Source: Psychromicrobium lacuslunae
GTDB lineage: Bacteria > Actinomycetota > Actinomycetes > Actinomycetales > Micrococcaceae
Length of the DNA: 64,000 nucleotides
Direction of reading: 5' to 3'
Assembly: GCF_000950575.1 (NCBI RefSeq)
Contig: NZ_CP011005.1
Span: 3,162,001-3,226,000, forward strand
Shown here: piece by piece, positions 10,156-12,258 of the stretch
Position numbering within the stretch: position 1 is the stretch's first letter
Layout: each line of letters begins with the position of its first letter
Position numbers and translations under genes: made by a program
Notes under the pieces: model-generated
What the model saw: only the letters and a program-made list of their open reading frames with translations
Told to the model about the DNA's origin: nothing
The model's database searches: none

Positions 10156-12258
10156 TTACTCTGACTTTGCCACTGTATTCCGTCGGGTGGTCGCCAACAG
10201 CAGTGCGCCCAGCAGCAACATCAGCAGAGCTAACGCCGCCATGGTGGCCCCGGAGAACCCGGTATTGGCTAGCGCGCCAGCGGCCGAAACGACTGCTGCC
10301 GCTTGGCCGGTAACAGCTGTGTTCGGCCCGGGTTGGCTCGCCGGGTTGGCAGGACCTGCGGGAGTAGCCGGGGTTCCAGGTGTAGCAGGGGTGACCGGGG
10401 TAACGGGTGTTACCGGGGTGACCGGGGTAACGGGCGTCACCGGAGTGACCGGCGTCACCGGGGTAACGGGCGTCACCGGAGTGACCGGCGTCACCGGAAC
10501 ATTCACCGTCGGGTTGGTAGTTTCTGAATTTCCGATCACGCTAATCGCGTTTCCAGCCACGGTAAGCGGGATGATCGGATTCAGGCCAACCTGGTTGCCG
10601 CCGAGGAGCGAGCCAAGACCGTTAGTGGTCTGGCCACCCACCGGATTATTGCCCACAGCGCCGCCGATACCGTTGTTGGTGGTAGCACCGGTGACGGTGG
10701 AGTTGCCGACCCCGCTGATCGCGTTGCCAGCAATGGCTGCCGGCACGACTGGGTTGGCGCCGACTTGGTTGCCGCCTACTAAGGAACCGATACCACTGGT
10801 GTTTTGCCCAGCGATAGGAGCACCACCGGTGGCCGGTGCGATGCCATTATTGGTTTTCGAGCCGGTGACGGTGGAGTTACCGACCCCGCTAATGGCGTTG
10901 CCAGCAATGGCTGCCGGCACGAAGCCGTTAGCGCCGACCTGGTTGCCTCCTCCCAAGGAGGTCGTCCCGTTGGTGTTCTGCTGGCCCACGACGGCACCTC
11001 CCGTTGTAGGAGCAGCAGTGTTGATGCCGTTATTGGTGGTGGAGCCGGTGACGGTGGAGTTGCCGACGCCACTGATGGCGTTGCCAGCAATGGTTGCTGG
11101 TACGAAGCCGTTAGCGCCGACTTGGTTGCCGCCAAGGAGTGAGCCGAGACCGCTGGTGCTTTGGTTGCCCATCGGAGTGGCTGAGCCAACAGGGCCGCCG
11201 GATGCTTGTCCGATGCCGTTGTTCGTGGTGGAACCAGTTGCGGTGGAGTTACCGACGCCACTGATCGCGTTACCGGCAATGGCCATTGGTACGACCGGGT
11301 TGGCCATTACCTGGTTACCGCCGACGAGAGAACCGATGCCGGTGGTGTTTTGCTGCCCCACCACGGCGCCGCTATTGGCTGGAGCGGTGGCTGGAGCAGC
11401 TGCAGTGCCGATGCCATTATTGGTTTTCGAACCGGTGACGGTGGAGTTACCGACGCCGCTAATGGCATTACCGGAGATGGTTGCTGGCACGAGACCGTTG
11501 GCGCCGACTTGGTTGCCGCCAAGGACAGAGCCGAGACCGCTGGTGCTTTGGTTGCCCATCGGGACTGCCGTACCAACAGGGCCGCCGGATGCTTGCCCAA
11601 TACCGTTGTTGGTGGTGGAACCGGTAGCCGTCGAATTACCCACCACGCTGATCGCGTTACCGGAGATGGAGAGCGGTGCGACCAGATTGACCAGGCCCTG
11701 GTTACCGCCGCCTAGTGAGGTGGTGCCATTGGTGTTCTGCTGACCCACCACGGCGCCCCCCGTTGCTGGAGGAGCAGTTGTGCCGATGCCGTTATCGGTG
11801 GTGGAACCGGTGACGGTGGAGTTACCCACCCCGCTAATCGCGTTACCAGAAATGGTGATCGGCGCCGTCGCATTGACGAGCGCTTGATTGCCCGCCACCG
11901 CGCCTAACACCCCGCTAGTGCCCTGGGTACTCAGTGGCTTCGCGGTTCCAATCCCATTATTGGTAGTGGAGTTGGTCGCGTGTGATGTGCCAACCAGACT
12001 AATCGCATTGCCCGAGATGGACACCGGAAGGTTGAGATTAACGGCTGCTTGATTGCCGGCAGCCGTCCCTCCGGCACCGCTACTTGATTGGTTCGAAAGC
12101 CCGCCTAACAAAGACGAGGCTGTGGGGCTGGCCGCTGGCACGGCTTGAGCGCCCCCGGTGTTCGGCTGTTCGGCAGCCTGAGCTGCGGCAGCCCCGAGGA
12201 CCATAATGCCCCCGGTGAAGAGGGTTCCCCAAAGAACCCTTCGAATATTGCTGTGCAT
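10156..12258 (-). CDS. cysteine-free chaplin-like repeat surface protein with LANTG sorting signal
   Basis: A 700-aa secreted surface protein. A signal peptide ends near AAAAQAA. Nine tandem repeats of ~55-65 aa follow, each built on [29 protein letters not shown]. A (VTP)n stretch of about 14 units is a likely wall spacer. The C-terminus has LANTG, a hydrophobic helix and [10 protein letters not shown], a class E sortase-type (LAXTG) signal. The repeat recalls the chaplin core (P-x-CGN-x-x-x-x-x-G) but Ser/Ala replaces cysteine. Chaplins are amyloid surface-active proteins of Streptomyces. The ATG at 12258 is chosen for its AGGAGC; an upstream frame-start at 12282 lacks one. Role in hydrophobicity, adhesion or biofilm is inference. 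Confidence 0.8.
10384..10500 (-). repeat. 9-bp tandem repeat encoding (Val-Thr-Pro)n
   Basis: About a dozen or more 9-bp units alternate between forms of GTGACCGGG, GTAACGGGT and GTCACCGGA (plus strand) and encode the VTP spacer before the sorting signal. Synonymous variation between units suggests partial stabilisation, but copy number could still vary by slippage. Confidence 0.85.
10514..12057 (-). repeat. nine tandem 165-195-bp coding repeats
   Basis: Nine GNQ...GNAIS...GNS units occur in tandem inside the chaplin-like gene. Several neighbouring units are near-identical in DNA (for example those encoding [20 protein letters not shown] and [20 protein letters not shown]), which implies recent duplication or homogenisation. 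Unit boundaries fall at each GNQ codon triplet. Confidence 0.85.

Follow-up and report, generated by a model that had tools for sequence, protein, structure and literature searches.

Two neighboring genes on the minus strand of a 64,000-nucleotide stretch of the Psychromicrobium lacuslunae genome (the window) probably encode a wall-anchored chaplin-like coat protein, P0001, and a secreted partner, P0002, with the coat protein translated behind the partner through an RNA structure that hides its Shine-Dalgarno sequence. The features of this locus, all identified computationally, are collected in Table 1. Neighboring genes in the window encode what we take to be a permease, an SDR protein, a glutamine amidotransferase, a PASTA protein and a PstS-like protein.

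Table 1. Features of the coat-partner locus, with positions counted from the first letter of the window.
Feature	Position	Strand	Basis
Secreted Pro/Val-rich partner P0002, 410 aa, GTG start, C-terminus DPGSSPD	12335..13567	minus	ORF, locus comparison
Conserved RNA with a three-way junction, reaching from the final partner codons to the start codon of the repeat gene	12256..12346	minus	cmsearch R2, MFE z
Predicted P1 5' arm CUCCUGACU, within the S, P and D codons and base one of the stop	12337..12345	minus	fold
Predicted P1 3' arm AGUCAGGAG, holding the repeat gene's Shine-Dalgarno (12266-12270)	12266..12274	minus	fold
Chaplin-like LANTG-bearing secreted protein P0001, nine units, Cys-free, 700 aa	10156..12258	minus	ORF reading
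Sec signal peptide, judged by eye to cover about residues 1-29	12172..12258	minus	comparison of 13 signal peptides
Nine chaplin-like units GNQ...P...[SA]GNAIS..GNS, residues 68-585	10504..12057	minus	unit alignment, HMM and profile-profile alignment
(VTP)n stalk, low complexity, about residues 587-640	10339..10500	minus	sequence, repeat search
LANTG sorting motif, residues 663-667, then hydrophobic helix and basic tail	10258..10272	minus	read from sequence

In the list of open reading frames, the repeat gene runs from an ATG at 12258 to 10156. The first-pass annotation had placed it correctly and gave no strand, which is minus. Its account of the protein also stands, with nine tandem units counted, 0 Cys in 700 aa, and a (VTP)n stretch followed by LANTG, a helix and a basic tail reading TTRRN...K. 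Successive units start 55, 62, 63, 66, 63, 61, 58 and 58 residues apart, with GN at +0 and +15 in all nine; position +22 holds GNS in eight and GTS in one. The 519 residues from 67 to 585 include one D, one E, three K, one H and no R. At the DNA level, a repeat search reports the array as seven copies of 141 nt with 67-100% identity, together with a 9-nt VTP-type repeat in the same gene. The signal peptide follows a family-wide pattern, RR.L.GTLFAGG..LGA.A.A, in which G16, G17, A26 and A28 are identical in 13/13 sequences compared. Matches to amelogenin, the IgA-binding protein BAC and inulosucrase (Pfam, NCBIfam, PDB) all fell on the VTP stalk and were judged compositional, and an opposite-strand open frame (10187-11743, 518 aa) most likely just shadows the repeats.

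The C-terminus of P0001 has the features of a class E sortase substrate: a LAXTG-type motif, a hydrophobic helix and a basic tail. Class E sortases prefer LAXTG. The genome carries such an enzyme, which the first-pass annotation had named as support for its reading, at L003 (NF033747, 247.4 bits; cut-off 160), and two further sortase-domain genes score under every class cut-off. Searches of profile libraries returned no anchor profile match for P0001, and LANTG was read from the sequence. We infer that the class E sortase of this genome is most likely the enzyme that cuts LANTG and joins the protein to the wall.

A likeness of the units to a chaplin core had been proposed at first reading. It holds in HMM and profile-profile comparisons, which rise above shuffled controls, and in relatives that match PF03777; P0001 itself is borderline, and the spacing of its third GN differs. 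An HMM built from 56 domains of the f37 genomes, which we take to be Streptomyces, aligns to 9/9 units over the GN...P...GN core, giving unit 1 a score of 11.7 bits against 7.5 for the best shuffled protein and full-length P0001 a negative score of -37.6. Profile-profile alignment of a P0001 unit with the f37 domains covers 31 columns without a gap and scores 24.9, where 200 column shuffles reached at most 16.0. Both methods leave the second half of the chaplin domain unmatched. The first two GN of all nine units have the spacing of the f37 domains inspected. Against PF03777, whose curated cut-off is 21 bits, P0001 scores 20.5 bits in a genome search, just under that cut-off; a 90-aa two-unit piece reaches 22.2 bits and a 246-aa piece 16.7 bits, and no match was returned for whole P0001, a 29-aa piece or a 290-aa piece. 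A first relative search with P0001 alone as the query found no relatives, and starting from an alignment yielded five named loci. Relatives in G030 and G052 score 62 and 71.2 bits, and a Microbacterium protein scores 67 bits. Because the comparisons exceed shuffled controls and graded relatives pass the PF03777 cut-off, the units are, as judged from sequence, divergent PF03777 relatives that share descent with known chaplins.

It is rather improbable that the repeats form a beta-solenoid or a plain spacer-type adhesin whose chaplin-like core arose by convergence. The borderline PF03777 score, the missing Cys pair, the altered third GN and the unmatched half-domain would fit that account, but graded relatives that have its type of signal peptide, partner and RNA link P0001 to clear PF03777 proteins. 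The first-pass annotation had set an unrelated beta-helix or adhesin family against its own reading, and neither profile nor Foldseek searches matched any adhesin or solenoid family. The structure model of three units, though weak (mean pLDDT 54), also speaks against convergence, showing five short strands per unit, low-confidence linkers and no continuous solenoid. Foldseek with this model gave 8 matches at E<=10, the best being FapC at E 0.78 and none significant; functional-amyloid names among them were not counted as evidence.

As a divergent chaplin relative, P0001 resembles the sortase-anchored Streptomyces proteins ChpA-C (PF03777) in its Sec signal, hydrophobic GN-rich units and C-terminal LAXTG-type signal, as well as in the class E sortase of its genome and the gap-free unit columns shared with f37 domains. 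Unlike ChpA-C, which have two units, it has nine, without Cys and with the second half of the domain unmatched. Its third GN follows the second at +7, compared with 12-13 in ChpA-C, and thus lies at +22 where the chaplin description has three GN motifs 12-13 residues apart. A partner and an RNA accompany P0001; neither was seen in f37, where the absence of the RNA carries little weight. According to two sources, chaplins are defined by two conserved Cys per domain, a pair that ChpE and the C-terminal domain of ChpB lack (PMC13251363, PMC3079736); P0001 has no such pair. The earlier view that a disulfide-free form is unusual did not survive this comparison, since ChpE of S. coelicolor is a Cys-free chaplin, yet is described as forming fibrils in vitro (PMC3079736). 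Unlike P0001, ChpE is short, single-domain and unanchored. The same holds for the supposed rarity outside Streptomyces: in a 2013 review, Arthrobacter chlorophenolicus, a non-sporulating rod-coccus, is credited with a chaplin-like gene (PMC4255298). The likeness to that gene is by description only, and the passage on it mentions neither a number of repeats nor a partner gene or an RNA. Like P0001 in its proposed role, the Actinoplanes missouriensis proteins CwpA and CwpB are SrtE-dependent hydrophobic wall proteins, but their authors conclude that they lack chaplin domains (PMC13251363).

The partner gene and the intergenic RNA are absent from the first-pass annotation. A secreted Pro/Val-rich partner lies upstream in 23/23 chaplin-like loci examined, 76-100 nt away. 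This set comprises 19 of the 20 genomes with a coat match and four loci from outside those 20; G474, a weak coat-search match (E 7.5e-4), was left out, and for G034 the partner is visible only as an open stretch of 178 codons next to masked bases. P0002 is probably disordered. Structure prediction for the partner, at a mean pLDDT of 39, gave helices and disorder and allowed no conclusion. Two genomes of the same genus, G001 and G003, yielded no coat match; at G001 locus L092, the partner tail and RNA stand ahead of a different repeat protein. The exact tail pattern occurs class-wide in 7/394 genomes, four in the window's family and three outside it (a reversed control hit 4 genomes), so the exact tail peptide is family-specific and the RNA is not. 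Of 34 tail-pattern matches, 30 yielded loci: 22 have a signal-peptide gene downstream, in three (L073, L074, L076) the RNA is followed by a short ORF, and five (L082, L085, L086, L096, L101) have neither. A crude scan found no minus-strand terminator-like site in 10000-13900, a promoter scan at the locus gave nothing useful, and the two genes are presumably co-transcribed. DPGSSPD was not found in the open-licence literature, where titles and abstract openings on chaplins with sortase, Micrococcaceae or Arthrobacter describe no such gene pair.

In the predicted fold of the intergenic RNA, the closing stem P1 joins the end of the partner reading frame, its last codons and stop, to the Shine-Dalgarno sequence that serves the repeat gene. 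The covariance model R2 detects it in the window, which lies outside the training set, at 27 bits (cmsearch, E 5.5e-5). The narrower model R1, built from five sequences, did not find the window element, and two whole-genome R2 searches left the window copy unreported, probably since first-look candidates were scored only in part. The window RNA folds with an MFE z of -3.82 in one calculation and -4.8 in another, and its P3 is only 3 bp long. The RNA is pseudo-palindromic, so that some elements score antisense too; the window gives 14.7 bits antisense against 27 bits sense. In Rfam 15, positions 12150-12450 drew a single match, on the opposite strand and below threshold (18.3 bits; cut-off 40), and seven further RNA loci drew two sub-threshold matches, both outside the element.

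Across 36 elements, all of which keep the 76-100 nt spacing, folding beats shuffled sequences at p<=0.05 in 36/36 (mean z -4.83), against 3/36 and a mean of -0.29 for controls. At least three of the five Shine-Dalgarno bases are predicted to pair with the first 22 nt in 34 of the 36, and two in L112 and L107. Changes on both sides occur in 24/30 pairs, with covariation of 0.529 versus 0.170 in shuffled and 0.05-0.09 in slid alignments, counts that rest on an alignment fitted to the RNA model; for 14 elements aligned simply with MAFFT, RNAalifold predicted 0 pairs. When cognate P1 arms were compared with swapped arms, 0/20000 swaps were as good. Once the invariant core is masked and the distal P1 arm of each locus is shuffled, only 13/36 loci reach p<=0.05, and the P1 arms of the window pair no better than their own shuffles (p 0.396). 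Synonymous choice in the partner tail is also skewed: Pro is encoded by CCT in 35/50 cases against 13% in bulk, and Ser/Thr codons end in T in 27/44 against 7-12%, codon figures that, like the permutation results, overstate certainty because the sequences are related and not independent. The 50 loci counted are 31 of the 36 elements and 19 of the 30 order-wide loci described below; L028, L094, L084, L070 and L110 were dropped from the codon count and the alignment set as near-duplicates. Together, the covariation and the skewed synonymous codons point to selection acting on the RNA.

These codon data bear on whether the tail DPG(S/T)(S/T)PD is instead conserved as a peptide, serving as a docking or processing tag, with the Shine-Dalgarno match a mere consequence. 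We consider this quite unlikely, since synonymous positions are strongly skewed to pairing bases, P1 covaries, and other families carry SPA, SPG or APD, yet keep CC and the next G in 50/50. Such a tag would explain why Asp-Pro-Gly precedes the last residues in 14/23 partners despite lying outside P1 in most folds, and why partner-like genes without a downstream coat gene bear the tail, a partly circular observation given that those genes were found through the tail pattern. The partner tail is likely under a mixed peptide and RNA constraint.

The RNA extends well beyond the window, and covariance searches recover it at the same gene position in five families of the order. R1, trained on a single genus, recovered 15/32 other element loci at E<=0.01, all at the expected place, and missed 15/32, window included. 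The order-wide search matched 30/297 genomes at E<=0.1; at E<=0.01, the RNA spans from the upstream ORF's stop to the next start codon in 28/28 examined loci. Of four order-wide matches over E 0.05, the one inspected, L153, sits ahead of an unrelated gene and was rejected. Of 21 downstream proteins newly found this way, 10 were scanned with PF03777; seven exceeded the cut-off, five of them from genomes already matched by PF03777 earlier, and the remaining three still share the signal peptide, partner and RNA. Among 30 f37 loci with 1500-nt flanks, none has a long ORF ending in [STA]PD. An RNA match was found in 0/13 PF03777-bearing genomes of f37 and f35, in a search that recovered only 8/15 RNA-bearing genomes of the window's own family.

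This conserved placement also helps to judge a further account, in which the RNA is real but acts as a sensor, whether riboswitch, thermosensor or protein-bound autoregulator, so that a ligand, temperature or a protein opens the Shine-Dalgarno sequence and not the upstream ribosome. Conservation of a three-way junction where ribosomes bind, with P2 and P3 kept as well as P1, would suit a sensor, and long-range structures of this kind exist, for example in E. coli rpmI-rplT, reported as coupled at +52 nt (PMC12548453). A sensor is nonetheless unlikely here: full conservation is confined to P1 and the Shine-Dalgarno sequence, unlike a typical ligand pocket, and the unpaired positions of P2, P3 and the junction show weak conservation save for two C in the P2 loop (15/17 and 12/15). 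Rfam offers no match for the window or seven further loci, and the 5' arm falls on the upstream ORF's last codons and stop in all 28 loci, which points to the ribosome.

We favor coupling by the upstream ribosome, and propose the following course. P0001, encoded by the second gene of a two-gene cassette whose first gene supplies the secreted Pro/Val-rich partner, would be secreted by Sec, cut at LANTG and joined to the wall by the class E sortase, presenting nine near-uncharged, beta-rich units on flexible linkers above the VTP stalk. These units probably associate with one another into a hydrophobic or adhesive coat. In the mRNA, pairing would hold the partner's last codons and stop against the Shine-Dalgarno sequence ahead of the repeat gene. 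On reaching the end of the partner, a ribosome would cover the 5' arm of P1, freeing that sequence and allowing the anchored protein to be made, thus keeping the two products in step. Upstream translation similarly opens structure over a downstream ribosome-binding site in MS2 coat-lysis and in rpmI-rplT, where a ribosome on the first gene is described as preventing an inhibitory structure (PMC12548453). Unlike in those systems, the 5' arm here is the stop-codon region, the spacing is 76-100 nt, and a three-way junction recurs in five families.

A broader reading is possible, and we hold it only tentatively. The RNA may be a new cis-acting class, present in several families, that ties an anchored chaplin-like coat to an obligatory secreted co-assembly partner. 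The partner's stop region would then lock the coat ribosome-binding site, so that coat is made in proportion to a partner that may contact it and help its assembly, as a counterpart of the chaplin-rodlin pair.

To our knowledge, the genus of P0001 and its relatives form no aerial hyphae. A multi-unit, mostly Cys-free chaplin branch with a dedicated partner would therefore bear on the role of chaplins before aerial growth. The RNA lock, with one arm overlapping coding sequence and stop and the other holding the Shine-Dalgarno sequence, would be a testable device setting the ratio of two surface proteins. It may also allow coat operons to be traced independently of their proteins where these have diverged.

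The minus-strand reading frame of the coat protein P0001 bears the units, stalk and LANTG signal that the first-pass annotation had described, and the protein is free of cysteine, as that description said. In each of the nine units GN stands at +0 and again at +15, followed by a third turn motif at +22, and in the DNA the array appears as seven 141-nt copies. In a three-unit structure model each unit holds five short strands (pLDDT about 70-80), and the linkers are of low confidence; the model does not show fibres and is in keeping with units that are beads that could stack. The open frame antisense to the repeats most likely results from the codon usage of the repeats.

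Coordinates of the features discussed, in the window or in the locus named
Feature	Sequence	Coordinates	Strand	Description
P0001	window	12258-10156	minus	700 residues; signal peptide, nine tandem units, VTP stalk, LANTG sorting signal
P0002	window	12335-13567		secreted, Pro- and Val-rich partner, directly upstream of the P0001 gene
Antisense frame	window	10187-11743	plus	518-aa open frame antisense to the P0001 repeats
Interrupted coat gene	L028 (G002)	6693-11006		ortholog in two open pieces
Long coat protein	L027	6773-13249		2158 aa
Long coat protein	L068	7001-12220		1739 aa
Mixed-unit protein	L033 (G036)	5087-7588		cysteine-free and two-Cys units
Sortase-domain pair	L035 (own genome)	5078-7605		two genes of unclear class

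Judged by the chaplin family PF03777 (cut-off 21 bits), P0001 is borderline: the genome search gives it 20.5 bits, slightly under the cut-off, its whole length is unmatched, and a two-unit piece reaches 22.2 bits. A profile built from 56 domains of f37 genomes, presumably Streptomyces, aligns with all nine units across the GN...P...GN core. On this profile unit 1 scores 11.7 bits versus 7.5 for the best whole-protein score among 200 shuffles of each of eight proteins; the remaining eight units fall between -2.8 and 3.3, and the full-length protein is negative (-37.6). Profile-profile comparison with the units of three genus members aligned 31 columns gap-free (score 24.9, probability 73.6), against column-shuffled maxima of 16.0 and 7.4 (in 200) and a reversed score of 9.2; the window's own units alone gave 20.1 and a probability of 28.8. 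Relatives in G030, G052 and G036 score 62, 71.2 and 31 bits on PF03777, and a Microbacterium protein (L069) 67 bits; P. silvestre L029 and Arthrobacter L071 have no PF03777 match. Because these high-scoring relatives bridge the distance, and given the profile alignments, we conclude from sequence comparison that the P0001 units descended from a chaplin domain. Two defining chaplin features, the Cys pair and the third GN spacing, are absent, so the chaplin likeness proposed from the sequence stands as descent, and we term P0001 chaplin-related, not a chaplin. One G036 protein joins three cysteine-free units to six with two Cys, which read GCN...C at new positions that differ from Streptomyces, possibly a separate gain of a disulfide.

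Two features had been stressed as unusual, the lack of a disulfide and the occurrence outside Streptomyces. Neither feature is new alone: the available text of PMC3079736 describes ChpE as cysteine-free yet fibril-forming, with cysteines not required for fibrils in vitro, and that of PMC4255298 reports a chaplin-like gene in Arthrobacter chlorophenolicus. PF03777 matches occur in 96 of the 394 genomes of a class-wide sample, the window's order and family among them.

LAXTG signals are taken by class E sortases. The organism's genome has three sortase-domain genes, and one of them (L003) is the class E gene sought as a check (NF033747, 247.4 bits; cut-off 160), adjoining genes, named by eye, for a glutamine amidotransferase and a PASTA-domain protein. 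The remaining two reached no class cut-off. At L035, two sortase-domain genes stand on either side of an ABC transporter ATPase gene that by eye resembles the phosphate type, and a gene for a PstS-like secreted protein precedes them.

Within the genus, the coat gene occupies the same site in G002, G004, G005 and G006, flanked on one side by a permease gene and on the other by an SDR gene in the opposite orientation; two further members lack a coat match. Named relatives with the gene are Psychromicrobium silvestre (L067), a Renibacterium metagenome-assembled genome (L068), two Microbacterium and one Arthrobacter. A secreted partner lies just upstream of the coat gene in 23/23 loci and ends in PD in 22 of them and in PG in one. 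This upstream gene, P0002 in the window, is poorly conserved in its middle and has no Pfam or NCBIfam match above a cut-off. The DPG(S/T)(S/T)PD tail closes 12 of the 19 partners within the window's family. A search of 149 family genomes for its coding pattern gave 34 occurrences, spread over 27 genomes, versus one for the reversed pattern, and no paper containing the tail sequence was found in the literature searched. In G002 the coat gene is interrupted and the adjoining permease gene fragmented, with partner tail and RNA retained; G005 and G006 carry intact coat genes. Two genus members encode long coat proteins (L027, L068) with about 15 chaplin-like units and a long LPGLPDLGGLIKNLPIVGGLLGGG array.

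Side-by-side comparison of the gaps between partner and coat genes revealed that the tail codons CTCCTGACT are the reverse complement of AGTCAGGAG of the downstream gene. All 20 coat loci have lowest-energy folds in which the Shine-Dalgarno is paired to the region around the stop codon, with only two of its four bases paired in G034, G481 and G052; in 34 of 36 elements at least three of five Shine-Dalgarno bases pair to the first 22 nt. In the predicted fold, over 76-100 nt from stop to start, stem P1 closes the structure around two hairpins, P2 and P3. In folding energy all 36 elements reach p<=0.05 (mean z -4.83), as do 32 of 36 inner parts alone (mean z -2.79), versus 3/36 equal-length control stretches within partner genes (mean z -0.29); the window's element gave z -4.8, and -3.82 in a separate run.

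In an alignment-free arm swap, own P1 arms outpaired those of other loci (0/20000 permutations as good), and the result held when the invariant core was masked and when 26 representatives were used; for the window, the 3' arm of the locus itself ranks only 14th of 36. Shuffling within each locus, a stricter test, gave a weaker result (observed mean -10.05 versus -7.14; 13/36 loci at p<=0.05), in which the P1 arms of the window were not significant. In a 17-sequence alignment, which was fitted to the model and hence leans towards it, 86.7% of cells are paired versus 64.4% when shuffled, 24 of 30 pairs change on both sides, and covariation scores 0.529 versus 0.170 shuffled and 0.05-0.09 slid.

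Tail Pro is CCT in 35/50 loci versus 13% in bulk, and the tail Ser/Thr codon is T-ending in 27/44 versus 7-12%. Across 50 tails the final residue varies among D, A and G, and the third from the end among S, T, A, F and R, whereas the CC and following G never change. Selection on these codons therefore appears to be on the RNA, and the DPG ahead of it probably reflects the peptide.

Covariance models, whose E-values are rough, recovered the element elsewhere. Run on 46 loci, a model of five sequences from one genus recovered 15 of the 32 other element loci at E<=0.01, in every case at the expected position; apart from these it matched three antisense copies of elements and no other stretch. Another two element loci scored more weakly, and 15, including the window, were not detected. 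The 17-sequence model matched the window's copy, outside its training, at 27 bits (E 5.5e-5; antisense 14.7 bits), and of 20 untrained element loci, including the window, it found 14 at E<=0.01 and five more weakly, missing one (L072). An order-wide search matched 30 of 297 genomes at E<=0.1, with 37 matches, 33 of them at E<=0.01, in families f1, f8, f13, f17 and f19. At all 28 of these loci that were inspected, the RNA spans from the stop of an upstream ORF to the next start codon; 21 are additional to the cassette loci described above, and in each of these the gene that follows the RNA encodes, by eye, a signal peptide. PF03777 exceeded its cut-off in 7/10 scanned proteins behind the RNA, and 8/10 PF03777-bearing f19 genomes of the class-wide sample have an RNA match at E<=0.01. 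None of 13 such genomes of f37 and f35 matched, a weak absence because the same search recovered only 8 of the 15 RNA-bearing genomes of the window's family. The RNA has no match in Rfam 15.

The same tail and RNA also precede other genes. In G015, G525 and G490 (L073/L127, L074/L133, L076/L140) a 50-69-codon ORF follows in place of the coat gene, its peptide holding four IGNWPDPM copies in G015 and one in G525. At L083, L084, L092-L095, L099 and L121 the coat signal peptide is retained ahead of other repeats, acidic VDA-type or TTVPAVAATAPT-type, which looks as though the repeat body can be swapped.

In coupling by RNA unfolding, as the available text of PMC12548453 describes it, a ribosome translating the upstream gene makes the start site of the downstream gene accessible. 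The arm layout here, with the partner's last codons and stop as the 5' arm and the coat gene's Shine-Dalgarno as the 3' arm, is what would be expected of such coupling: a ribosome on the partner gene would unfold P1 and so open the coat gene's start site, and P2 and P3 may bring the two arms together. A crude scan found no terminator-like site on the minus strand of the cassette region. That the RNA instead contains a ligand pocket is less likely, since the unpaired positions of P2 and P3 show little conservation, except two C in the P2 loop. Coupling by unfolding would hold secreted partner and anchored coat protein at a fixed ratio, and by analogy with rodlins and chaplins we would guess that the two assemble together. 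No such operon was found in the titles and abstract openings of the chaplin papers that the literature searches listed. Translational coupling is a known mechanism; this RNA, its location and its association with chaplin-like coats seem to be new, and the RNA is the most surprising part of the finding.
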